From positions 3,234,306 to 3,298,305 of the forward strand of contig CP051244.1 of assembly GCA_017795045.1 (NCBI GenBank): a DNA stretch of 64,000 nucleotides. Reading direction: 5' to 3'. The translations under genes were made by a program, and so were the position numbers. Position 1 is the stretch's first letter. Each line of letters begins with the position of its first letter. Source of the stretch: Allomuricauda sp. (GTDB lineage: Bacteria > Bacteroidota > Bacteroidia > Flavobacteriales > Flavobacteriaceae). Under the pieces are notes generated by a model. It was not told where the DNA came from and searched no databases. It was given only the letters and a program-made list of their open reading frames with translations. This document shows positions 1-11,055 of this stretch, piece after piece.

Positions 1-153
1 CTTTTTCAGCAGCTTGGAGTTATGGAGTTCCTTGATGTCCCTTCGCACCGTATCTACCGAAACATCCAACAAATTGGCAATATCCGTTAACAATACCCTA
101 TTATGGATGCCCACTTCATTGAGAATAAATCGATGCCGCTCTTCTTTTAGCAT
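1..153 (-). CDS. DeoR-family transcriptional regulator, N-terminal part (cut by window edge)
   Basis: Reading the minus strand from the ATG at 153 gives 51 residues, beginning MLKEERHRFIL, that form a complete DeoR-type helix-turn-helix. The recognition helix region reads DLLDVSVDTVRRDIKEL-like (NLLDVSVDTVRRDIKEL in the sequence). Proteins of this family usually bind a phosphorylated sugar through a C-terminal domain, which lies outside the window. The gene is divergent from susC and shares its upstream region, which holds palindromic half-sites. I infer that it controls itself and the susC operon, with a ligand from amino-sugar metabolism; the ligand is not visible here. Confidence 0.85.
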   Translation of the reverse strand, partial: MLKEERHRFILNEVGIHNRVLLTDIANLLDVSVDTVRRDIKELHNSKLLKK

Positions 154-185
154 ATGGAGGGTAAAGTTAAATAAATCCTAAAAAG

Positions 186-263
186 ATTGCTTATTACAGC
201 AATATATTGCAAAAATAAGCAGATATCCGGATAATTTCGATTAAAATTGCTTTTACTTGCAAT
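186..263. promoter_or_regulatory. Array of palindromic operator-like sites (ATTGC-N8-GCAAT)
   Basis: Two 18-bp palindromes share the half-site ATTGC/GCAAT: ATTGCTTATTACAGCAAT at 186-203 and ATTGCTTTTACTTGCAAT at 246-263, exactly 60 bp apart. A weaker version, ATTGC-N8-GCAGA, lies at 206-223. A second inverted repeat, TGCTTATT (188-195) with AATAAGCA (214-221), overlaps the first two. The right-hand site overlaps the putative -33 box of the susC promoter. These are good candidates for the binding sites of the divergent DeoR-type regulator (inference). Confidence 0.6.
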
Positions 264-288
264 CTTTTGCTGTTTTTGCATATATTTG
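257..288 (+). promoter_or_regulatory. Putative susC promoter (TTG-21-TATATTTG)
   Basis: TATATTTG at 281-288 matches the Bacteroidota -7 consensus TAnnTTTG. A TTG at 257-259 lies 21 bp upstream, inside the right-hand operator palindrome. Binding there would block the promoter. The leader before susC would be about 200 nt. Confidence 0.45.
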
Positions 289-495
289 GATGTAGAATTT
301 CGATTTTTTGCAAGAGTACTGTGGACTTTTATTCATTCTTTATTCCTGAAAAAGAATTTTTAATGATAAATATCAATCAAGTCCTTGGGATTTTGTCAGA
401 CCATCAAATTCGCCACGGAAAATATAGCTCCACCCAATGCGATTGACCGTGAACTTACTAGATACTATTAACTCTTAATTTAACTACTCAGATTT

Positions 496-3471
496 ATGGG
501 AAAACTTCATGATTACCTAGGAAAAATGAGGTTCCGATTGGCCCTACTGGCCCTTTTGGCAACAACGTTGAGCGCGTTTGGCCAAAGTCAGTATACCTTG
601 ACGGGGACCGTAACTGAAAGCGGCACTGGACTTCCAGTGGTCGGCGCATCAGTATTTATTGAAAACACATCGTTCGGTACCGTTACCGATTTTGATGGAA
701 ACTACAGCTTTACGGCTTCATTGGAATCTGGATCATACAGCCTATCGTTCAGTTCATTGGGCTTTTCATCCCAAAAGATAGCCATTGATGCCGGCGGTAA
801 CCTTACCATTACTACAGATGCTGTCCTTTCAGAGGATTTATTGAGCTTGGACGAGGTGGTCGTGACCGGTACTGGTGCCGGAGCCAACAAAAGAGCTTTG
901 GGGAACGCCATTTCTTCAGTAAAATCCGAAGATTTGGTGGACAACGGGGCCACGCAAATCGACCAGGCCATTGCCGGTAAGATCACCGGTGCCTTGGTAC
1001 AACAGAACTCTGGTGACCCTGCAGGGGGTATCAGCATCCGTTTACGGGGGCCCAGTACCATTTCCGGTAATTCGGACCCACTTTATATTGTGGATGGTAT
1101 CATCATCAGTAACTCCAGTAATGAGCTCGTAGATTTAGGGGGGAATGCCCAGAACCGTTTGGCGGATATCAACCCTAACGATATTGAAAAGATAGAAATC
1201 ATCAAAGGGGCCGCCGCCGCCGCCATTTATGGTTCCAGGGCGAGTAACGGGGTAGTTCAGATTTTCACCAAACAAGGAAGAAGTGGGGAACCCAAGTTTT
1301 CTTTCATGACCAATACGCGTATCAACGAACTACGTAAGGAAATCGATTACAATACCGTGCCTTTGGCGTGGACCGCTCCAACCGACCGTTCCGACCTGAA
1401 CACGGTTGCTGCAGACCGATATAATCTTCAAGATGAAATCTTTGAGTCTGGCTTTGGTGTGGAAAACTACCTTTCCATGACCGGAGGTACCGAAAAAACT
1501 TCCTATTACCTTTCCGCTTCCCATTTAAGCAACGATGGGATTGTGAAAAACACCAACTTCAAACGCTATGGGTTCAAGGCCAACCTTACCCAACAAGCCT
1601 TTGATTGGTTAAAGGTCACCGGTGGTTTCAATTATGTGCGAAGTGTAAGTAAGGATGTGCCCAATGGAGGGATCAACAATGCCTATGGCGCCATCACCGG
1701 ATTTGTTTTCAGTGACAACTCGGTAAACCCAGCTCCGGATGAATCAGGAGTGTATCCGGTAACCTCTCTATTGGTTCCCAGGACCAACCCTGCAGAGGCC
1801 GTTGCCCGATTCGATTTCGGTCAGAAGACCAATCGTTTCATCACCAGCGTTGCCTTGGATGCCAACTTTACGGACAATCTGAGCGCCAAGTACACCTTGG
1901 GTATGGATTATTACAACCAATCCGCCACAGCCTATATCCCCATCAACAATACATCACCCAATGCCGATGGATATGCAAGACGGTCGGATTTGAACAGCTT
2001 TCAGTACAACTCGGATTTGAACCTTACCTATAAAACCGACATTACCGATGCCATCGCATCCACTTCCACCGTTGGGGGATCATGGCAATATGAAGAGCGT
2101 GACAGGGTAGGCATCAATGCCACAGGACTTCCTCCTGTTGTGGAGACCGCTACTGGAGGTAGTATTTTGGAGCAAGGCGAAACACGTTCCCAAATATCCT
2201 ATTGGGGTGCCTTTTTCCAACAATCCTTCTCGTTCAATGACAAAATTTACGTCAACGGAGCCGTTCGTATGGATGGCGCATCAACATTCGGTGAAGACGA
2301 AAGAAACCAGTTGTACTTCAAGGCCAGTGGTTCTTATGTGGTTTCCGATGAAGACTTTTGGAAAAGTACCTTCGGTGGAGCCTTCAACCTGTTCAAGTTA
2401 AGAGCTTCTTGGGGACAGGCTGGTAACTTGACCGCTTTGGGCGCCTTTGATAGATTTTCAGTCTACAATCCCGATGCCTTGACCGGTTCGGTGAGTTTGA
2501 TTCCTTCCACCGCCCAAGGTAACGAAGACCTTAAACCAGAACGTCAAGATGAAATTGAAATTGGTTTTGATGCTGGACTGTTGAACAGCCGATTGGGTAT
2601 TGAGTTCTCCTATTACAAACAAAAAGTGACCGATCTATTGCTTCCAAGAGTTTTGGCTCCTTCGAGCGGATTCGGTTCACGTTTTGAAAATGTGGGGAAC
2701 TTGGAAAATACCGGTGTGGAGATTCTATTACGTGGAGCTCCTATAAAAACCCAGGACTTTAGCTGGGACGTTACCGCTACCTTCTCCAAGAACAAGAACG
2801 AGGTGACCAACGTTGCCGGAGGTGGAAGACTGGCCTTGGCTGGAAGTTTCTCTACCAACTATGTTATTGAAGGAGAACCCTTGGGTGTGTTCTACAGACA
2901 GTTTTATGCCAGAAACGAAGATGGGTCCATTGCCTTGGATGCCGATGGGTATCCGTACAGAGGTACTACCGAAGATGGTGAATCCTCCAAAGTATTGGGC
3001 GATCCCAACCCAGATTGGTTCGGCTCTTTTATCAACGAATTCTCTTATAAGAACTTTGGTCTTCGTGTACAGTTCGACGCCGTTCAGGGATACGATGTAT
3101 TCAACTGGAACCGCAGATTGCTGGACAACGTAATCTTTGGTGGTGGTGCCCAAGTAGGGCAAGAACTATTGGGCAATTTGCCTAAAGGATATGGAAGTGC
3201 ACAGGCCAACATCTTCGAGGAATTTGTGGAGGATGGTTCCTTTGTAAAACTACGGGAAGTGGCCTTGAGCTATGACTTTAAACCCAAATGGGAGTGCATA
3301 GACAACGTGAAAATAAGTTTGGTGGGAAGAAACCTAATTTCTTGGGACGATTACTCCGGATGGGATCCAGAAGTAAGTGCCGCCGGACAGAGCAACGGAG
3401 TACGTGGATTTGATTTTGCCACCGTGCCTATTCCAAGAACCTATCAACTAGGCTTTAACGTTAGTTTCTAA
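496..3471 (+). CDS. SusC/RagA-family TonB-dependent outer-membrane transporter
   Basis: The 991-residue protein has the full SusC plan. There is a signal peptide (MRFRLALLALL..AFGQ, residues 11-30), a carboxypeptidase-like domain (about 32-115, containing the GxPVxGASV and TDFDGNY motifs), a plug with YIVDGI and the IEIIKGAAAAAIYGSRASNGVV motif region, and a 22-strand-type barrel ending in aromatic NVSF. With the SusD lipoprotein just downstream it would import oligomers across the outer membrane, powered by TonB. The neighbours (GHL10, AmpG-like permease, GH3, AnmK) suggest a peptidoglycan-derived glycan as substrate; that is inference. An in-frame ATG at 526 is an alternative start. Confidence 0.93.
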   Translation: MGKLHDYLGKMRFRLALLALLATTLSAFGQSQYTLTGTVTESGTGLPVVGASVFIENTSFGTVTDFDGNYSFTASLESGSYSLSFSSLGFSSQKIAIDAGGNLTITTDAVLSEDLLSLDEVVVTGTGAGANKRALGNAISSVKSEDLVDNGATQIDQAIAGKITGALVQQNSGDPAGGISIRLRGPSTISGNSDPLYIVDGIIISNSSNELVDLGGNAQNRLADINPNDIEKIEIIKGAAAAAIYGSRASNGVVQIFTKQGRSGEPKFSFMTNTRINELRKEIDYNTVPLAWTAPTDRSDLNTVAADRYNLQDEIFESGFGVENYLSMTGGTEKTSYYLSASHLSNDGIVKNTNFKRYGFKANLTQQAFDWLKVTGGFNYVRSVSKDVPNGGINNAYGAITGFVFSDNSVNPAPDESGVYPVTSLLVPRTNPAEAVARFDFGQKTNRFITSVALDANFTDNLSAKYTLGMDYYNQSATAYIPINNTSPNADGYARRSDLNSFQYNSDLNLTYKTDITDAIASTSTVGGSWQYEERDRVGINATGLPPVVETATGGSILEQGETRSQISYWGAFFQQSFSFNDKIYVNGAVRMDGASTFGEDERNQLYFKASGSYVVSDEDFWKSTFGGAFNLFKLRASWGQAGNLTALGAFDRFSVYNPDALTGSVSLIPSTAQGNEDLKPERQDEIEIGFDAGLLNSRLGIEFSYYKQKVTDLLLPRVLAPSSGFGSRFENVGNLENTGVEILLRGAPIKTQDFSWDVTATFSKNKNEVTNVAGGGRLALAGSFSTNYVIEGEPLGVFYRQFYARNEDGSIALDADGYPYRGTTEDGESSKVLGDPNPDWFGSFINEFSYKNFGLRVQFDAVQGYDVFNWNRRLLDNVIFGGGAQVGQELLGNLPKGYGSAQANIFEEFVEDGSFVKLREVALSYDFKPKWECIDNVKISLVGRNLISWDDYSGWDPEVSAAGQSNGVRGFDFATVPIPRTYQLGFNVSF

Positions 3472-3486
3472 TCCAATAAAAAATTG

Positions 3487-4824
3487 ATGATGAAAATATA
3501 TAGATATACAAAACTAAAACTGATGTTATTGCTTACCTCCGTGGTGGCGATCACATCATGTGAAACCGATTTTGACAATCCGAATGCCGCAACGGACGAT
3601 CAGGTATTCTCCTCCAGGGAGGGTATCTTGGCTGCGACCATAGGGATGCAACAACTCTATTCCACCACTGGTTTGCGATGGGTCGTTGAAACCCCTGCCA
3701 TCACCGCCAGGGAGGGAGGTATTACCACTACCTTCCAAAACATGATCGAACTGGAAGACGGAGGGGACATTCCCAATTCCAACTCCAATGTCGTTGGACT
3801 TTGGTCCACCATGCTACGCGTGGTCGGCATCGCAGAGGATATAGCTGAAAATGCAGCAAACGTGGACATTGATGCAGGAACCCAAAGCGGATTGATTGCC
3901 TATGCCAAGCTATACCAGGCCATGAGTATAGGGGCTTTGGCCCAAAGCTACGAACAGGTGATCGTAGCCACTTCGGAGGATAACCCACCTTTCGTTTCAA
4001 GAACCGAAGGTTTCAATACGGCCATTACCCTATTGACCGAGGCCAAAGCAGCCATTGCTGCCAATCCCATATCCGGAGAGTTTCAATCCGAAATCTTAAG
4101 AGGGGATATCGATTTGGCCAATACCATTGATGCCATGCTGGCAAGGTTCAACCTTTATGCGGGAAATTATGAAGCTGCCATCAGTGCCGCTTCCGCTGTG
4201 GATCAGACCTCTGCCTCTGTATTTACGTACGATTCCCAAAACCTGAATCCTATCTGGAGTAGGGTGTATCAGAACAGTGCACCTAACTTTAAGCCTAGGG
4301 ACAACTTTGGTTTGCCGGATTCGTTTACATTCGATGCCAATGACGGCAGATTCGATTTCTATCTTATCGCTTTGGACGAGTTGAACCAAAACCAATTGCC
4401 CATTGAGGACTTGGCTGGTTTCTTTGATGGCGATACCGAATCCATTCCGGTGTACCTTCCAGACGAGATGAACCTGATCATTGCTGAAGCCAACCTAAGA
4501 AAAGGAACACCTGATACTGGAGCGGCCGTTGCTGCTTTGAACGAGGTATTGACCGACACCGATGACGTGTTTGGTGTAAATGCCAACGTTGCCGCTTATG
4601 CAGGGGACACCACAGTGGATGCCCTTTTGGACGAAGTGTACAAAAACAGACGTGCAGAATTGTTCTTGACCGGTTGCAGCTTGGAGGATAGTAGAAGGTT
4701 TGGAAGACCCCAACCCTCTCCAACGGTACAGAACTTTGACGAGGAACGCAACAGGAATTTCTATCCTTATCCAAATACGGAACGGGACAATAATACCAAT
4801 ACACCGGCCGATCCGTCAATTTGA
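3487..4824 (+). CDS. SusD/RagB-family outer-membrane lipoprotein
   Basis: About 445 residues. A hydrophobic leader ends in the lipobox AITSC, so the protein should be a lipoprotein capping the SusC barrel and binding the ligand. The family's TPR-like helical fold is indicated by the LYxxAISAAS segment and the late EMNLIIAEANLRKG and YKNRRAELFLTG motifs. It follows susC by 15 bp and clearly belongs to the same transcript. At 445 residues it is somewhat short for a starch-type SusD. The start is the ATG at 3487; the TTG just before it is less likely. Confidence 0.92.
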   Translation: MMKIYRYTKLKLMLLLTSVVAITSCETDFDNPNAATDDQVFSSREGILAATIGMQQLYSTTGLRWVVETPAITAREGGITTTFQNMIELEDGGDIPNSNSNVVGLWSTMLRVVGIAEDIAENAANVDIDAGTQSGLIAYAKLYQAMSIGALAQSYEQVIVATSEDNPPFVSRTEGFNTAITLLTEAKAAIAANPISGEFQSEILRGDIDLANTIDAMLARFNLYAGNYEAAISAASAVDQTSASVFTYDSQNLNPIWSRVYQNSAPNFKPRDNFGLPDSFTFDANDGRFDFYLIALDELNQNQLPIEDLAGFFDGDTESIPVYLPDEMNLIIAEANLRKGTPDTGAAVAALNEVLTDTDDVFGVNANVAAYAGDTTVDALLDEVYKNRRAELFLTGCSLEDSRRFGRPQPSPTVQNFDEERNRNFYPYPNTERDNNTNTPADPSI

Positions 4825-4872
4825 TCAAAATAAATTATTTGAGTTGTTAGTTGTTTTAATTTAATCCAAGTG

Positions 4873-4910
4873 AAAAGGCCTACATTTAGTGCATCGTAGG
4901 CCTTTTTTTT
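4873..4910 (+). terminator. Strong intrinsic terminator between susD and the GHL10 gene
   Basis: A 10-bp perfect stem (AAAGGCCTAC with GTAGGCCTTT, loop of 12 nt) is followed by a run of eight or more T. The run ends only six bases before the GHL10 start codon, so the downstream genes need read-through or a promoter hidden in the hairpin. No TAnnTTTG box fits in the gap. Confidence 0.8.
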
Positions 4911-4916
4911 ATTCTT

Positions 4917-6404
4917 ATGAAGCGTATTTTATACATCCTTCCCGTTATTTTTTGTTTATCCTGTGCCGTGACCAAAGCCCCAAAAGAAGAGTTTAGGGGA
5001 GTTTGGATCGCCACTGTGGCCAACATTGATTGGCCCAAGAATCCCAAGGACAATGTTGAGAAAAAGAAGAGAGACTTCACTGAAATACTGGATTTTTACG
5101 AAGACTTGAACTTCAACGCTGCCATTGTCCAAGTCCGTACCGCTGGGGATGCCCTGTACGATTCGGATTTGGCCCCATGGTCCGAGTACCTCACCGGAAA
5201 AGAAGGTGAAGCCCCGGAAGGATTTTCAAATCCTTTGGAATGGATGATAACGGAAACCCACAAAAGGGGCATGGAATTCCATGCATGGCTCAATCCCTAT
5301 AGAGCCACAGTCGATTTGGACACTTCCGCACTTTCCAAACAACATGACTTCCATCAACACCCGGACTGGATGGTAAAATATGGGAAAAAGTACTACTACA
5401 ATCCCGGTTTGCCCGAAGTTCGACAGAAATTCAGTAAAATCATCGAGGAACTGGTCACCGGATATGAAGTGGATGCCATCCATTTCGATGATTATTTCTA
5501 TCCCTACAAGGTCAAAGGAGAAGTTTTTAGGGATTCAACCACTTTTGCCACCTATGGCCTTCCCAATCAAAATATAGAGGATTGGCGCCGTAGCAATGTG
5601 GATTCCTTGGTGAAAGATGTACACCACACCATTAAAAAGAACAAGCCATGGGTACAGTTTGGCATCAGTCCCTTTGGTGTATGGAAAAACAAGAGTACGG
5701 ACCCCAAAGGTTCCGACACCCAAGCGGGACAGACCACTTATGAGGATTTGTATGCCGACCCCCTACTCTGGGTAGAGAAAGGTTGGTTGGATTATCTGGC
5801 TCCACAAGTCTACTGGAGCATGGATTACCCAGTTGCCTCCCATAAAAAAATCACTACGTGGTGGGCCAACACCACCCCAAATACCCACCTTTATATCGGA
5901 AACGGTACCTACAAAATAAAGAACAACCCGGACAAAGCCTGGAAACGAAACAACGAAATTCCCAAGCAGTTGGACTTTGCTAGGCAAGAGAACAATATCA
6001 ACGGGAACATCTTTTTCAGTGCCAAATCCCTAATCGGACAACACGAAAAAGTAAACCAGAAACTCAAACGGAAATTTTACAGGCTTCCAACACAAAGTCC
6101 CGGTCCGCTGAACCACATTAAAAGAACAGTTGCCATACCCGCGGTTGAATCCGTACAAAAACATGGCAGTCAACTAAAAATCTGTGTTTCGCATAGCGAT
6201 TCTATCCCTAGATTCATCTTGCTCTACGAATTGGATCCCAAAACCAAGGAACCAAAAACACTTATCGGAACAGCGTATCTTTCCGAGAGTCAGGATTTGG
6301 GCTGCGTTCAAATGGAATTGGAAAGGAAGTACATCAAAAAGAATATGGCGGTAGTGGTTCGCGATGCTTATGGCAATCAAAGCCCAACCCAACCCATAGA
6401 TTAA
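4917..6404 (+). CDS. GHL10-family (YngK/YddW-like) glycoside hydrolase lipoprotein
   Basis: 495 residues. A leader ending in the lipobox FCLSC makes it a lipoprotein. The next segment has the family hallmark RGVWIATVANIDWP (about 28-41), and a TIM-barrel with acidic residues in AIHFDDYFYPY (about 181-191), PFGVWKN and APQVYWSMDYP follows. E. coli YddW (DigH) in this family has been reported to cut peptidoglycan strands stripped of stem peptides. That activity fits the downstream AmpG-like permease, NagZ-like GH3 and AnmK. The C-terminal about 90 residues look like a small beta domain. The exact substrate is inferred from family and context. Confidence 0.85.
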   Translation: MKRILYILPVIFCLSCAVTKAPKEEFRGVWIATVANIDWPKNPKDNVEKKKRDFTEILDFYEDLNFNAAIVQVRTAGDALYDSDLAPWSEYLTGKEGEAPEGFSNPLEWMITETHKRGMEFHAWLNPYRATVDLDTSALSKQHDFHQHPDWMVKYGKKYYYNPGLPEVRQKFSKIIEELVTGYEVDAIHFDDYFYPYKVKGEVFRDSTTFATYGLPNQNIEDWRRSNVDSLVKDVHHTIKKNKPWVQFGISPFGVWKNKSTDPKGSDTQAGQTTYEDLYADPLLWVEKGWLDYLAPQVYWSMDYPVASHKKITTWWANTTPNTHLYIGNGTYKIKNNPDKAWKRNNEIPKQLDFARQENNINGNIFFSAKSLIGQHEKVNQKLKRKFYRLPTQSPGPLNHIKRTVAIPAVESVQKHGSQLKICVSHSDSIPRFILLYELDPKTKEPKTLIGTAYLSESQDLGCVQMELERKYIKKNMAVVVRDAYGNQSPTQPID

Positions 6405-6442
6405 AATCCAATGGATTAAAAAACGTAAGAAAAAACTATAAA

Positions 6443-7723
6443 ATGGATGTAGCAAAAAAGGATAAAAACGCTTGGCTCTGGGTTCCCTTTCTCTATTTCA
6501 CCCAAGGTATCCCGTATGTATTGGTGGTAACTGTTTCCGTTATCATGTACAAACGTTTGGGTATTGGAAATGCAGAAATTGGACTCTACACCAGCTGGCT
6601 CTACCTCCCTTGGGTCTTAAAACCGCTTTGGAGCCCTTTTGTGGAATTGAACGGCACCAAGCGGAAATGGTTCTTGGTCATGCAGTTGATCATGTCCTTG
6701 GCCTTTTTGGGCATTGGCCTCTTTTTGCCATCCAACGCATTTTTCACCATTACCTTGGCTTTTTTCTGGATGGCAGCATTTGCCTCCGCCACCAATGACA
6801 TTGCCTCCGATGGTTATTACATGATCGGGCTTTCACAAAAAAAGCAGTCCTTTTTTATTGGTATGCGGAGTACCTTTTATCGATTGGCCATGGTGACCGG
6901 GCAAGGGCTTTTGGTGATTGTCGCCGGCTTTTTGGAGCACAAATATGGAGATAACACCAAAGCGTGGTCTTTGACCATGATCGGTGCTGCGGTATTGATG
7001 CTAATCTTGACCGCGACCAATTTTATGGCCGCTCCAAAATTCGAGGCACCGTCAACGAAAGATTCTGAAAAGCCCACCAGCTTTTGGGAGGTATTCGCAT
7101 CCTTCTTTAGAAAAAAACACATTGGAATTTCCCTTTTGTTTGTCCTTAGCTATCGCTTGGGCGAATCGCAATTGGTAAAAATGGCCTCACCATTTCTCTT
7201 GGACAAACTGGAAGTTGGAGGGCTCAGTTATTCCACCGAAGCGGTAGGTACCATTTATGGTACGGTTGGGGTCATCATGCTGTCCTTGGGCGGAATCATC
7301 GGCGGAATCCTTATCTCGAGGGATGGATTAAAAAAATGGATGTTTCCCATGTTGTTGTCCCTAAACCTGCCCAATATCCTCTATGCCATATTGGCCATCA
7401 CCCACACCACCAGCATTTATGCCGTAGTGGGCACCGTGGTGGTAGAGCAGTTTGGATATGGATTTGGGTTTGCCGCATTTCTGGTCTTTCTCATTTATGT
7501 GGCCGAAGGTGCTTCAAAAACATCACATTATGCCATTGCGACCGGCTTTATGGCCTTGGGCATGATGCTACCCGGTATGCTCAGCGGATACATCCAGGAA
7601 TGGTTGGGATACGATGGTTTCTTTGTTTGGGTGGTCATCGCGGCCATTCCGGCATTCCTCCTACTCCGATTTATTGAATACCCAGCCGATTACGGCAAAA
7701 AGACAAGCGAATTAGATGCATAA
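6443..7723 (+). CDS. AmpG-like MFS permease (muropeptide/anhydro-sugar importer)
   Basis: 426 residues with about 12 membrane segments and the AmpG-type opening: FTQGIPYVLV, IGLYTSWLYLPWVLKPLWSP, then FASATNDIASDGYY. AmpG-type carriers bring GlcNAc-anhydroMurNAc and its peptides from the periplasm to the cytoplasm. The gene follows the GHL10 gene by 38 bp, and its stop overlaps the start of the GH3 gene by 8 bp, so the two are probably translationally coupled. The link between periplasmic glycan cutting and cytoplasmic NagZ/AnmK steps supports this role. The length is shorter than E. coli AmpG (about 490). Confidence 0.82.
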   Translation: MDVAKKDKNAWLWVPFLYFTQGIPYVLVVTVSVIMYKRLGIGNAEIGLYTSWLYLPWVLKPLWSPFVELNGTKRKWFLVMQLIMSLAFLGIGLFLPSNAFFTITLAFFWMAAFASATNDIASDGYYMIGLSQKKQSFFIGMRSTFYRLAMVTGQGLLVIVAGFLEHKYGDNTKAWSLTMIGAAVLMLILTATNFMAAPKFEAPSTKDSEKPTSFWEVFASFFRKKHIGISLLFVLSYRLGESQLVKMASPFLLDKLEVGGLSYSTEAVGTIYGTVGVIMLSLGGIIGGILISRDGLKKWMFPMLLSLNLPNILYAILAITHTTSIYAVVGTVVVEQFGYGFGFAAFLVFLIYVAEGASKTSHYAIATGFMALGMMLPGMLSGYIQEWLGYDGFFVWVVIAAIPAFLLLRFIEYPADYGKKTSELDA

Positions 7724-9314
7724 AAGAATACTCCCATATACCACTGCCCAAAAAGACCTATCGTTACAACAAAAGATCGGGCAATTGTTCATGCCTGCCG
7801 TTTTTATAAATGATACCGAGGAAGAAGTGGCCAAAATGGAGCAATTGATCCATGACCATCATGTAGGAGCCCTGTGCTTCTTTCATAGTAGGGCCAGTGC
7901 GGCCACCAATTTTGAAGGAAAAAAGAAGGTTGTCCACAATGAAAAAAGTTATGACCGATTAAAAACCCTCATAGAGCGCTATCAAAAAGCGGCACAACAG
8001 CCTCTTCTGATTGCCATTGACGCTGAATGGGGCTTGGCCATGCGGATTGAAAATACCCCGCAATACCCGTATGCCATCACGTTGGGGGCCCTCACCAACA
8101 ACTTGGACCTTATAGAACAGGTTGGGCAGCATATTGGCCTGGATTGTAAGGAAGCAGGTATCCATTGGAATTTGTCCCCTGTAGTGGATATCAACAGCAA
8201 CCCTGAAAACCCCGTAATCGGTTACCGATCGTTCGGGGACAGTAAGGGTGAAGTGTTTTCCAAAGCCGGGGCATACCTAAAAGGTCTGGCAAGTTCAGGA
8301 ACATTGAACTCCATAAAACATTTTCCCGGGCACGGCGATACCGCCACCGATTCCCATTTGGGACTTCCGGTCATTGATAAATCCTTGCAAGAACTCCAGG
8401 AAAGTGAATTGTACCCTTTCCAGCAATTGATACAAAAAGGAGTGGACTCCGTCATGGTGGGGCATTTGCTGCTTCCCCAGTTGGATAGCGAAGAACCCTC
8501 CACGACTTCATCAAAAATTATTACGGACTTGCTTCGCAATACTTTGGGGTTTGATGGAGTGGTCATCTCCGATGCACTGAACATGCATGCCGTTTCCCAA
8601 AGATATCCCGAAAAGGGCAAGTTGGAGGCAACCGCCTTTGCCGCAGGAATGGATATGTTGTGTTTTAGCGAAAATGTTCCCGAAGGCATTGAAGCAATCC
8701 TCAACACCGCCACCGAAGCAGAAATTGAACAAAGTTTTGAACGCATTTGGCAGCTCAAGGAAAAGGCATTTTCCCATTCAAAAGACACTTCTCCGTCCCA
8801 AAAACCTTCAGAGCTAAATCGACTATTGGCGCAAAATACCCTTACCGAACTTTACGGCAAAGCTGAGGAAGTATCCAAAATCAAGAGTGGTGAATTTCTC
8901 AACGTATCGGTGAACAATAGCACCCAAAATAGGTTTTCCGTAAAAATCGAAGAGGACCTCGGCCAGAAACCATGGGATTTGACAAAGGACAAAGCGACCG
9001 TTGAAATGCTGTTGGAAAAGCATCAAAATGTGGTACTGTCCATCTTCCCTCCTGCCGTTAAGCCTAAAAATAACTTTGGTTTTGAAAACGAGGTGTTGGA
9101 TTTCATCAAATACCTCCTCGCACAGAAAAATGTACTCATCTATCTTTTTGGAAATCCATACGCCTTGGACATCATGGGGCTATTGCCCACATCGAATGCG
9201 GTTCTGGTGTATCAAGATTTTCCTGAATTTCAAGAAGAGGCCTTCCAACATTTCATTGGAAAGTTGATGGCCAAAGGAAAACTACCCGTTCAACTTAAAA
9301 CCTTTCAACCATGA
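7716..9314 (+). CDS. nagZ: NagZ-like GH3 beta-N-acetylhexosaminidase, cytoplasmic
   Basis: 532 residues. The NagZ histidine loop KHFPGHGDT is at residues 201-209, followed by DSH, and the nucleophile aspartate is D286 in SDALNMH. There is no signal peptide, so the enzyme should act in the cytoplasm and remove GlcNAc from GlcNAc-anhydroMurNAc imported by the adjacent permease. The C-terminal 170 residues beyond the barrel resemble the extra domain seen in longer GH3 proteins; E. coli NagZ is only about 340 residues. The gene overlaps its neighbours on both sides (8 bp and 4 bp). Confidence 0.87.
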   Translation: MHKRILPYTTAQKDLSLQQKIGQLFMPAVFINDTEEEVAKMEQLIHDHHVGALCFFHSRASAATNFEGKKKVVHNEKSYDRLKTLIERYQKAAQQPLLIAIDAEWGLAMRIENTPQYPYAITLGALTNNLDLIEQVGQHIGLDCKEAGIHWNLSPVVDINSNPENPVIGYRSFGDSKGEVFSKAGAYLKGLASSGTLNSIKHFPGHGDTATDSHLGLPVIDKSLQELQESELYPFQQLIQKGVDSVMVGHLLLPQLDSEEPSTTSSKIITDLLRNTLGFDGVVISDALNMHAVSQRYPEKGKLEATAFAAGMDMLCFSENVPEGIEAILNTATEAEIEQSFERIWQLKEKAFSHSKDTSPSQKPSELNRLLAQNTLTELYGKAEEVSKIKSGEFLNVSVNNSTQNRFSVKIEEDLGQKPWDLTKDKATVEMLLEKHQNVVLSIFPPAVKPKNNFGFENEVLDFIKYLLAQKNVLIYLFGNPYALDIMGLLPTSNAVLVYQDFPEFQEEAFQHFIGKLMAKGKLPVQLKTFQP

Positions 9315-9976
9315 AAACCGATATCATTTCCTCATGGGAGAAAAATGCATTGGAATGGATCAAGGTCATCCAGAACCAAAGCATCCCCTCCAGAAAGTTC
9401 ACCAACGTAGCTATTGTGGAAACCATCAAAAACCTAAAAGGCAAAAAAATTGCCGACATAGGATGTGGCGAAGGTTGGTTGACCCGGGAAATGACTGCCT
9501 TGGGATGGGAAGCTACCGGCATGGATGCCATAGCAAGCCTAATTTCCGAAGCCAAGACCAAAGGGAAGGAAGCCTATCATGTAGTCACCTTTGAGGACAT
9601 CATATCGGGAAAAACCATTCCCAATGCACCATTTGATGCTGCAGTCTTCAATTTCTGTCTGTATTTGAAGGATGACCTTGTTCCCCTTTTACAAAACACC
9701 TTGGGCCATTTAACCGATGGAGGCACTGTAGTGATTCAAACCCTGCACCCTTTTTTTCTGGTACAAAACGGTATGTCCTACAAAAGCCAGTGGCTCACCG
9801 ATTCCTGGAAAGGTCTTCCCGGAAACTTTGAGGATGGCCATTCATGGTATGCCCGAACACTGGAGGATTGGATCTATGAATTGAATGGTTTACAGCATGG
9901 AGGGGTTTCCATTGAAGAGGTAATCAACGATGAAAAAAAACCCATTTCCTTGATCATCAAAATTAAAAAAGCATGA
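9311..9976 (+). CDS. Class I SAM-dependent methyltransferase
   Basis: 221 residues. Motif I is IADIGCGEGWLTREM (about 47-61), followed by the acidic motif II region ATGMDA and a post-motif segment FDAAVFNFCLYLKDD. It overlaps the GH3 gene and anmK by ATGA at both ends, so it is made together with them. No substrate can be read from the sequence. It may act on an imported or recycled amino-sugar intermediate, or be an unrelated passenger. A methyltransferase between nagZ and anmK is not part of the classical recycling pathway. Confidence 0.8.
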   Translation: MKTDIISSWEKNALEWIKVIQNQSIPSRKFTNVAIVETIKNLKGKKIADIGCGEGWLTREMTALGWEATGMDAIASLISEAKTKGKEAYHVVTFEDIISGKTIPNAPFDAAVFNFCLYLKDDLVPLLQNTLGHLTDGGTVVIQTLHPFFLVQNGMSYKSQWLTDSWKGLPGNFEDGHSWYARTLEDWIYELNGLQHGGVSIEEVINDEKKPISLIIKIKKA

Positions 9977-11055
9977 GCACCTATAAAGTTTTAGGGTTGA
10001 TGTCCGGCACCTCCTTGGATGGATTGGATATGGCCTATTGTCATTTTACAGAGGAAAATGGACAATGGAAATTTTCCATTGAACGCACAAAAGAGGTTTC
10101 CTATACCGATGAGATGCGGGAACACCTCAAAAATGCCATTTTCCTGTCCGAAGAAGACCATGCCCAGCTCCACAAAGACTATGGCATTTGGTTGGGGGAA
10201 CAATCCAAACACTTTATTGACGAAGAAAATTTGGAGGTGGATTTCATTGCCAGTCACGGACATACATCGCACCATAGACCCGAAGATGGGTTCACCTTTC
10301 AACTTGGTGATGGTCAATTATTGGCCAATACCTGTAGAAAAAAGGTGGTTTGTGATTTCAGGACAAAGGACGTTACCTTGGGCGGCCAAGGAGCCCCGTT
10401 GGTGCCTATTGGGGACAAATTGTTGTTCCATGAATATGATTTCTGCCTCAACCTTGGAGGTATCAGCAATATCTCGTTTGATGACAACGGGGCACGGATA
10501 GCCTATGACATTGGGTTGGCCAACATGCCCTTAAACTACATTACCCAAAGAATGGGGTTGGATTATGACGAAAATGGGAACCGGGCCAGAACGGGAAAGC
10601 TGGACCATGACCTCCTCCAAAAACTGAACAGTTTAGCGTACTACAAACTGCCCTATCCAAAATCCACCGGATATGAATGGTTCACTGGGGAAATTGTTCC
10701 TTTGATTCAAGCTTCAAAGGCCACCAACATTGATCTACTTCATACATTTATCCACCACAATTGCGAACAGATAGCCAACGAGGTAAAGAAATATGCCATA
10801 AAGACCCCGAATAAATTATTGGCCACGGGTGGTGGTGCCTTGAACCAGTTTTTTATGGACACTTTACAAGAAAAATTGGGAAGTACCGCTACAGTTTCCA
10901 CACCAAGCAAAACCTTGATTGCGTACAAGGAAGCCTTGGTGTTTGCCTTGATGGGCGTTTTACGTCTTAAAGGTGAAACCAATGTACTCCGTTCGGTCAC
11001 AGGAGGGCGTAAAGATTCCAGTAGCGGAGAGGTCTTTTTTCCGGTAAAGGATTAA
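9973..11055 (+). CDS. anmK: Anhydro-N-acetylmuramic acid kinase
   Basis: 360 residues, the usual length. The signature LGLMSGTSLDGLDMAY is at residues 7-22, followed by VCDFRTKDVTLGGQGAPLVP and a sugar-binding/ATPase segment LATGGGALN. AnmK opens and phosphorylates anhydroMurNAc to MurNAc-6-phosphate in the cytoplasm. MurQ, the next enzyme, is not in the window. It is the last gene of the locus, and its stop overlaps the stop of the opposing exporter gene by 4 bp. Confidence 0.93.
   Translation: MSTYKVLGLMSGTSLDGLDMAYCHFTEENGQWKFSIERTKEVSYTDEMREHLKNAIFLSEEDHAQLHKDYGIWLGEQSKHFIDEENLEVDFIASHGHTSHHRPEDGFTFQLGDGQLLANTCRKKVVCDFRTKDVTLGGQGAPLVPIGDKLLFHEYDFCLNLGGISNISFDDNGARIAYDIGLANMPLNYITQRMGLDYDENGNRARTGKLDHDLLQKLNSLAYYKLPYPKSTGYEWFTGEIVPLIQASKATNIDLLHTFIHHNCEQIANEVKKYAIKTPNKLLATGGGALNQFFMDTLQEKLGSTATVSTPSKTLIAYKEALVFALMGVLRLKGETNVLRSVTGGRKDSSSGEVFFPVKD

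Follow-up and report, generated by a model that had tools for sequence, protein, structure and literature searches.

A SusCD pair inserted in a flavobacterial peptidoglycan recycling cluster: a probable uptake and salvage operon for peptidoglycan sugars

Why should a SusC-SusD outer-membrane importer stand at the head of genes known from the recycling of the cell's own wall? This question is raised by the first 11,055 nt of a 64,000-nt stretch of Allomuricauda sp. DNA (GenBank assembly GCA_017795045.1, contig CP051244.1, positions 3,234,306 to 3,298,305; hereafter the window), in which susC and susD precede genes for a GHL10 enzyme, an AmpG-like permease, a NagZ-like glycosidase, a methyltransferase and AnmK. 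The locus is likely to be a peptidoglycan-sugar uptake and salvage operon, whose SusCD pair would serve muramyl fragments and add scavenging from outside to recycling. Within the genus, one fixed slot of the cluster has seen several gains, losses or swaps of the SusCD pair, mostly together with the methyltransferase and a particular DeoR type, and outside the genus relatives of the pair recurred beside genes for the muramyl enzymes AnmK, MurQ or NamZ.

Open reading frames and family searches of the window gave the order susC-susD-GHL10-ampG-GH3-methyltransferase-anmK, all on the forward strand, with a divergent DeoR-type regulator gene on the left and a convergent gene of the major facilitator superfamily (MFS) at the right end of the cluster. 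Gaps of 12, 92 and 38 bp lay between susC and susD, susD and GHL10, and GHL10 and ampG, respectively, and overlaps of 8, 4 and 4 bp joined ampG to GH3, GH3 to the methyltransferase gene, and the latter to anmK. The genes, with murQ just outside the window, are as follows.

1..153, (-): DeoR-type regulator gene, first 51 codons only, from translation; the rest of the gene, and murQ after it, lie outside the window on the left
496..3471, (+): susC, TonB-dependent outer-membrane transporter (TIGR04056; CarbopepD_reg_2, Plug and beta-barrel)
3484..4824, (+): susD, surface lipoprotein partner of SusC (weak Pfam SusD_RagB match; solved SusD-like relatives; lipobox before CETDFD)
4917..6404, (+): GHL10 enzyme, putative lytic transglycosylase and probable lipoprotein (PF02638; Cwp19 match)
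6443..7723, (+): AmpG-like muropeptide permease of the MFS (TIGR00901 under cut-off; solved AmpG matches)
7716..9314, (+): NagZ-like GH3 beta-N-acetylglucosaminidase, signal peptide not visible (PF00933; NagZ-type solved matches and motif)
9311..9976, (+): S-adenosylmethionine (SAM)-dependent methyltransferase, which goes with SusCD in the genus (PF13489; fold match 3e8s)
9973..11055, (+): anmK (PF03702; NCBIfam over cut-off)
G000:C1:3232830-3233597, (-): murQ, outside the window, about 0.7 kb to its left, behind deoR

Adjacent susC and susD, glycan-active enzymes (GHL10 and GH3) and a regulator (the divergent DeoR) in one cluster are among the marks of a polysaccharide utilization locus (PUL), and these were present here. 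The sequence-only reading of this DNA had named SusC-SusD, GHL10, the AmpG-like permease, a signal-less NagZ-like GH3, AnmK and the divergent DeoR; coordinates and family searches bore out every gene on that list, from which the methyltransferase gene at 9311-9976 had been overlooked. It had also noted MurQ and an amidase as missing from the window, and outside it both were found, murQ divergent in the same cluster and a single Amidase_2 (AmpD-type) gene away from the locus. The host genome (G000; 3.76 Mb, one contig) carries a single AnmK and three GH3 genes.

SusC was assigned by TIGR04056 (622 bits vs cut-off 368), and SusD reached 21.5 bits with Pfam SusD_RagB, slightly below the cut-off of 23.1. 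A profile built from SusD relatives matched two solved SusD-like chains, and the predicted SusD model, with a mean predicted local distance difference test (pLDDT) score of only 65, matched solved SusD-like proteins. A lipobox pattern occurred in 11/11 listed SusD relatives and in 6/11 listed GHL10 relatives, and the lipobox of window SusD is followed by CETDFD. Acidic residues after the lipoprotein cysteine mark surface lipoproteins in this bacterial group.

The GHL10 protein matched PF02638 at 254 bits vs a cut-off of 27.9 and was close to Cwp19 (E 1.4e-102, 347 bits); by eye, its N-terminus shows a hydrophobic stretch and LSC. Cwp19 is a lytic transglycosylase for which 1,6-anhydromuropeptides, with 1,6-anhydro-N-acetylmuramic acid (1,6-anhydroMurNAc) ends, were demonstrated experimentally (PMC6016235). 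By this homology the window GHL10 would leave the same 1,6-anhydroMurNAc ends, which are the substrate of AnmK; since 1,6-anhydro products are what AmpG, NagZ and AnmK handle, the gene set fits one chemical path. For the permease, TIGR00901 was the best NCBIfam match (186 bits, under the cut-off of 350), and four solved AmpG/muropeptide transporter sequences were matched. The GH3 protein scored 254 bits with PF00933 and 165 bits with NCBIfam PRK05337 (under the cut-off of 207), NagZ-type N-acetylglucosaminidases were among its best solved matches, the stretch KHFPGHGDTATDSHLGLP, a NagZ-type motif, was present, and an N-terminal signal was not seen by eye. AnmK reached 501.6 bits with NCBIfam vs a cut-off of 436, and 229 bits with PF03702. 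A levoglucosan kinase in place of AnmK (116 vs 131 bits) was considered and seems the less probable reading in view of MurQ, AmpG and the NCBIfam AnmK equivalog match. MurQ itself scored 313 bits vs a cut-off of 302.

From these families a route can be proposed. SusD and SusC would bind wall fragments with muramyl sugars on the cell surface and bring them in by TonB-dependent import; the GHL10 enzyme, probably a periplasm-facing lipoprotein, would, to judge from its homologues, cut the glycan and leave 1,6-anhydroMurNAc ends; and the AmpG-like permease would move GlcNAc-anhydroMurNAc (GlcNAc, N-acetylglucosamine), with or without peptide, into the cytoplasm. There the NagZ-like GH3 would remove GlcNAc, AnmK would form MurNAc-6-P, and MurQ would convert this to GlcNAc-6-P and lactate, the families being assigned by the searches above and the activities predicted from them. 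NagB, encoded at the locus in most relatives and elsewhere in the host genome, would feed glycolysis.

Whether SusCD belongs to this route was examined in relatives, beginning with the genus, in which AnmK was present in 40/40 genomes. At the recycling locus, SusCD was present in 23 of the 40 and absent from 14, the other three (G133, G149 and G157) not being judgeable because of broken contigs. The sequence-only reading would have been refuted had relatives kept the enzymes but never an adjoining SusCD; as it is, 23 of the 37 loci that could be judged had the pair within the cluster. Nineteen of the 23 pairs were of the window type, three of a type about 43% identical and one of a third type, and all three types shared the same slot, between nagB and GHL10. 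A tree of AmpG, GH3 and AnmK (38 rows, of which two lack a SusCD label; G148 and G149 absent) required at least 8 changes of SusCD presence or absence. In seven of the SusCD loci a second DeoR gene stood divergent to susC, and nagB was gone from the locus in G000, G150 and G126. A DeoR protein of one genus relative contained HTH_DeoR and DeoRC domains. GHL10 occurred in 23/23 loci with SusCD vs 8/14 without, and its tracking of SusCD on the tree was not significant. Two genomes, G136 and G137, had in addition to the main cluster a compact locus, deoR divergent from susC-susD-methyltransferase-anmK-SSF symporter-murQ, without GHL10, AmpG and GH3, and this layout also occurred in two of the named records described below (L187 and L194). 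As further features of these loci, a gene for a GNAT acetyltransferase (about 160 aa) often stood between GHL10 and ampG where SusCD was present, the motif test for it being loose, and left of the window, beyond murQ and a sugar-dehydrogenase-like gene, there was a gene for a giant repeat-rich protein (L002:2-5539), the same neighbour being seen in many relatives' loci.

What the cluster looks like without the importer was seen from the side of AnmK, which was present in 113/120 genomes of the family. These AnmK proteins fell into two classes, 19 (besides the window's own) at 52-62% identity to that of the window and the other 93 at 50% or below; the loci inspected were those around every first-class AnmK (19) and around 20 of the 93 second-class ones. 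In 16/19 of the first class, murQ, a NagB/PIG-L fusion gene (identified by NCBIfam), ampG, GH3 and anmK were together, deoR being seen in 15, GHL10 in 8 and the methyltransferase in 2, and in the remaining three AnmK was alone or with murQ. SusC or SusD matches were found in 0/19 of these stretches and a weak SusC match in 1/20 of those of the second class, so that the base rate of any SusC match under AnmK-centred sampling was 0/19 and 1/20. Since the enzymes are clustered without SusCD in related genera, the recycling cluster is the older element and SusCD an add-on. In the window, SusCD occupies the usual nagB position, the nagB fusion gene of the host, 70% identical to a relative's, being elsewhere in the genome. 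In most genera of the family, AnmK of the second class (L058-L077) had a different gene neighbourhood. A carbon-nitrogen hydrolase (nitrilase-like) gene, possibly for an amide-cleaving step, was seen in or near the recycling cluster of some relatives (L044:8990-9931, L048:8988-9929 and L126:3073-4008).

An importer added to a recycling cluster could simply make recycling tighter, with SusCD recapturing turnover fragments of the cell itself that have escaped across the outer membrane and not those of other cells. The attached enzymes are indeed the recycling set that relatives without SusCD keep, and with a single AnmK in the host genome they must serve the own wall too; on the other hand, 14 of the 37 judgeable genus loci do without SusCD, and the additional compact loci that carry SusCD, symporter, AnmK and MurQ beside a complete cluster would be needless for own-wall recycling. 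We consider such recapture unlikely. The insertion pattern, which is observed directly, would instead extend own-wall recycling to scavenging of outside fragments, the SusCD ligand probably being muramyl (peptidoglycan) fragments and their source probably outside the cell. The pathway proposed in the sequence-only reading is thus supported by comparison, with the refinement that SusCD is an add-on to an older cluster; an origin of the fragments in foreign cells is suggested by this pattern.

Relatives were also collected by SusD sequence alone, and the best 80 of 203 confirmed matches to a SusD-only profile are referred to as the named loci. AnmK, MurQ or NamZ was encoded in the stretch in 55/80 of these, and in 27/51 of those outside the genus; linked loci included Arenibacter (11/11), Pontibacter (4/4) and Maribacter (2/5), and also Croceivirga, Aquimarina, Rufibacter and Hymenobacter. 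None of the three enzymes was found in the named-locus stretches of Latescibacterota (0/3) or of several flavobacterial records; three Latescibacterota records (L220, L222 and L228) had SusCD pairs about 45% identical to the window family, with muramyl enzymes not near. Among 397 genomes of the family the profile matched 34, 32 of them outside the genus, and AnmK, MurQ or NamZ was encoded within 8 kb in 19 of these 32. One of the loci from another genus (L256) had a 38% identical SusCD pair at this same slot of its core cluster, which makes a fourth independent case. In a phylum-wide sample, 30/395 genomes were matched, giving 24 new loci, the other 6 being already among those collected above. 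NamZ, an exo-muramidase, was confirmed by Pfam beside SusCD in 11/11 loci scanned. Taking all distinct loci together (126, the set excluding genus loci of the third and 43% types), AnmK, MurQ or NamZ was near SusCD in 76. By SusD identity to the window, linkage was found in 14/15 loci above 75%, 33/49 at 60-75%, 2/7 at 50-60%, 16/31 at 40-50% and 11/24 below 40%; the link is thus strong where SusD is close to that of the window and becomes patchy further away, and not every SusD relative is claimed as a muramyl importer. The gene maps were made by BLAST to a few reference proteins, by which distant members can be missed; no SusD frame was mapped in L238 and L275, and both were scored as unlinked despite SusC, AnmK-like, symporter and nagB matches in L275, and L257 was counted as linked with AnmK within 8 kb but genes on both strands intervening. 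A chance neighbourhood of SusCD and the cluster was ruled out by the recurrence (three types at one slot, compact loci, NamZ), as was an operon peculiar to the host genome, the arrangement being common to Flagellimonas olearia, Arenibacter species, Croceivirga, Aquimarina and others.

These counts also bear on the ligand. GH3 and NagB handle GlcNAc generally, and SusCD might import some other glycan (chitin oligosaccharides or another GlcNAc polymer, for example), sharing with the cluster only the GlcNAc-handling enzymes. Some distant relatives, L231 and L245 among them, do have nagB while lacking a muramyl enzyme within 8 kb, solved chitin-binding SusD-like proteins were among the weaker fold matches, and the ligand might not be the same for all of the swapped SusCD types. 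What stood near SusCD in the 76 linked loci was, however, AnmK, MurQ or NamZ, whose substrates are muramyl sugars, and not nagB alone, and the compact loci, without GH3, GHL10 and AmpG, still have AnmK and MurQ, which makes another glycan very unlikely and favours muramyl fragments.

The methyltransferase followed SusCD closely in the genus, being present in 22/23 loci with SusCD vs 1/14 without; of seven independent pairs on the tree, an average of 6.4 had it together with SusCD and none showed the opposite (median p 0.03). Its predicted model (pLDDT 94.6) had one close fold, 3e8s, at a template modelling (TM) score of 0.92, which is listed merely as a putative SAM-dependent methyltransferase. 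So close an association would be expected if the methyltransferase were the true partner of SusCD, some other molecule being imported and modified and AnmK and MurQ being secondary. In the same direction, 15 of the 126 loci pair SusCD with the methyltransferase and lack AnmK, MurQ and NamZ within 8 kb. Among these, L166 has AnmK further off in the stretch, L205 has AmpG, GH3 and GHL10, and in G228, G266 and G385 another part of the genome encodes AnmK; L175, L189, L195, L196, L199 and L204 have deoR divergent from susCD-methyltransferase without muramyl enzymes near. At SusD identities below 50%, in contrast, the methyltransferase was present in 0/55 loci of the 126-locus set and AnmK, MurQ or NamZ in 27/55, three genus loci of the 43% SusCD type, which lie outside that set, having the methyltransferase; and in L048 and L051, from other genera, the methyltransferase gene stood beside anmK without SusCD. 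It is thus highly improbable that the methyltransferase is the true partner, and muramyl uptake remains the preferred reading. Following SusCD-methyltransferase, an FMN-dependent dehydrogenase gene (L175:12145-13338, Maribacter record), possibly for lactate handling, and an M19 dipeptidase-like gene (L199:12299-13717, from a flavobacterial metagenome-assembled genome, MAG), possibly for stem-peptide handling, were observed.

Two signals concern the expression of the locus:

267..279, (-): candidate DeoR operator GCAAAAACAGCAA, the sole strict copy in the window
4872..4907, (+): terminator-like hairpin and T tract in the susD-GHL10 gap (-16.5 kcal/mol)

The word AAAC[AG]GCAA, which was discovered and counted on one and the same set of regions, was present in 41/81 non-redundant divergent deoR regions vs 1.4 in shuffles, namely, in 13/35 before susC, 27/45 before nagB and 1/1 before anmK. 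DeoR probably controls both arms of the locus via GCAAAAACAGCAA-like sites, the shared word giving only a hint of co-regulation at the locus. A T-tract hairpin was found in 67/101 gaps examined 3' of susD, a lower bound as some gaps were shortened by an upstream alternative GHL10 start; in the genus, the stem of this conserved GGCCTAC hairpin was mostly kept and its loop variable. By this hairpin, SusCD is probably held at a higher level than the enzymes. A promoter scan gave 15 sites vs a shuffle mean of 21.4, fewer than by chance, and was not used as evidence; in that scan the hairpin 3' of susD was missed, its loop exceeding the length allowed.

Several observations weigh against a muramyl uptake operon. 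The AmpG and NagZ assignments both fell below the NCBIfam cut-offs, and AnmK is carried by almost every genome of the family, so that the enzymes alone do not imply scavenging. Linkage of SusCD to AnmK, MurQ or NamZ fades with distance, being seen in only 7/24 phylum-wide loci and in 2/7 at 50-60% SusD identity, and the 15 loci with SusCD and methyltransferase lack these enzymes nearby. Finally, transcription may stop at the hairpin 3' of susD, so that SusCD and the enzymes need not share a transcript.

Among known systems, the nearest in function are the MurNAc systems of Tannerella and NanOU. Tannerella forsythia, with its murQ-murK-murT operon and AmpG, is a member of the Bacteroidota that uses exogenous muramyl sugars (PMC5790795, PMC7670621); the window has AnmK where Tannerella has MurK, an outer-membrane importer is not named in these Tannerella accounts, and SSF, to which the symporter of the compact loci belongs, is the superfamily of Tannerella MurT (PMC5790795). 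NanOU is likewise a SusCD pair for an acidic amino sugar beside its catabolic genes, but the sugar is sialic acid, not muramic acid, and binding and TonB dependence were demonstrated experimentally (PMC3969230). In arrangement, a murein-gene PUL of a Urechidicola mussel symbiont, also of the Flavobacteriaceae, is similar in having susCD pairs, deoR, a sodium symporter, murQ, nagB, ampG, GH3, GH171 and other murein genes, its authors leaving the substrate open between mucus and the environment (PMC10199937). That PUL, likened here by description, differs in its length of 27 kb (MAG contig) and in having two SusCD pairs as well as ampD, dacA and an epimerase gene, and AnmK and a methyltransferase are not among its genes in the parts described. 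The classical Gram-negative recycling set, AmpG-NagZ-AnmK-MurQ, has its counterpart in the set found here adjacent on the chromosome, to which the window adds the SusCD importer and the lytic-transglycosylase-like GHL10, its AmpG and GH3 being divergent members. DigH is presumably also a member of the GHL10 family, where the sequence-only reading had placed it. It cuts denuded glycans (PMC12288456). Cwp19 has the same GHL10 domain as the window protein (PMC6016235), but Cwp19 and DigH act on the own wall in autolysis or division, whereas the window GHL10 gene stands behind an importer. A SusCD importer named for peptidoglycan sugars was not found in the open literature searched, outside which most subscription journals lie. 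What appears new is SusCD as a recurrent, swappable add-on to the recycling cluster, whose family accompanies alternative muramyl back ends.

Peptidoglycan makes up a large share of dead bacterial biomass. It is possible, if somewhat doubtful at this breadth, that a widespread SusCD family forms the outer-membrane gate for muramyl sugars in Bacteroidota, with modular back ends (AmpG/NagZ/AnmK, symporter/AnmK/MurQ and symporter/NamZ/MurQ), a hitherto unrecognised methyltransferase step of muramic-acid salvage in one large clade, and recycling genes repeatedly converted to feeding on dead or growing neighbours. A SusCD family linked to AnmK, MurQ and NamZ would provide the missing outer-membrane step of peptidoglycan-sugar use and a transporter type to seek in other MurNAc scavengers, as well as marker genes for peptidoglycan feeding, and such feeding would become directly testable in cultured flavobacteria. 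The genus pairs with and without SusCD are ready comparison strains. A housekeeping pathway would thereby have become a feeding pathway.

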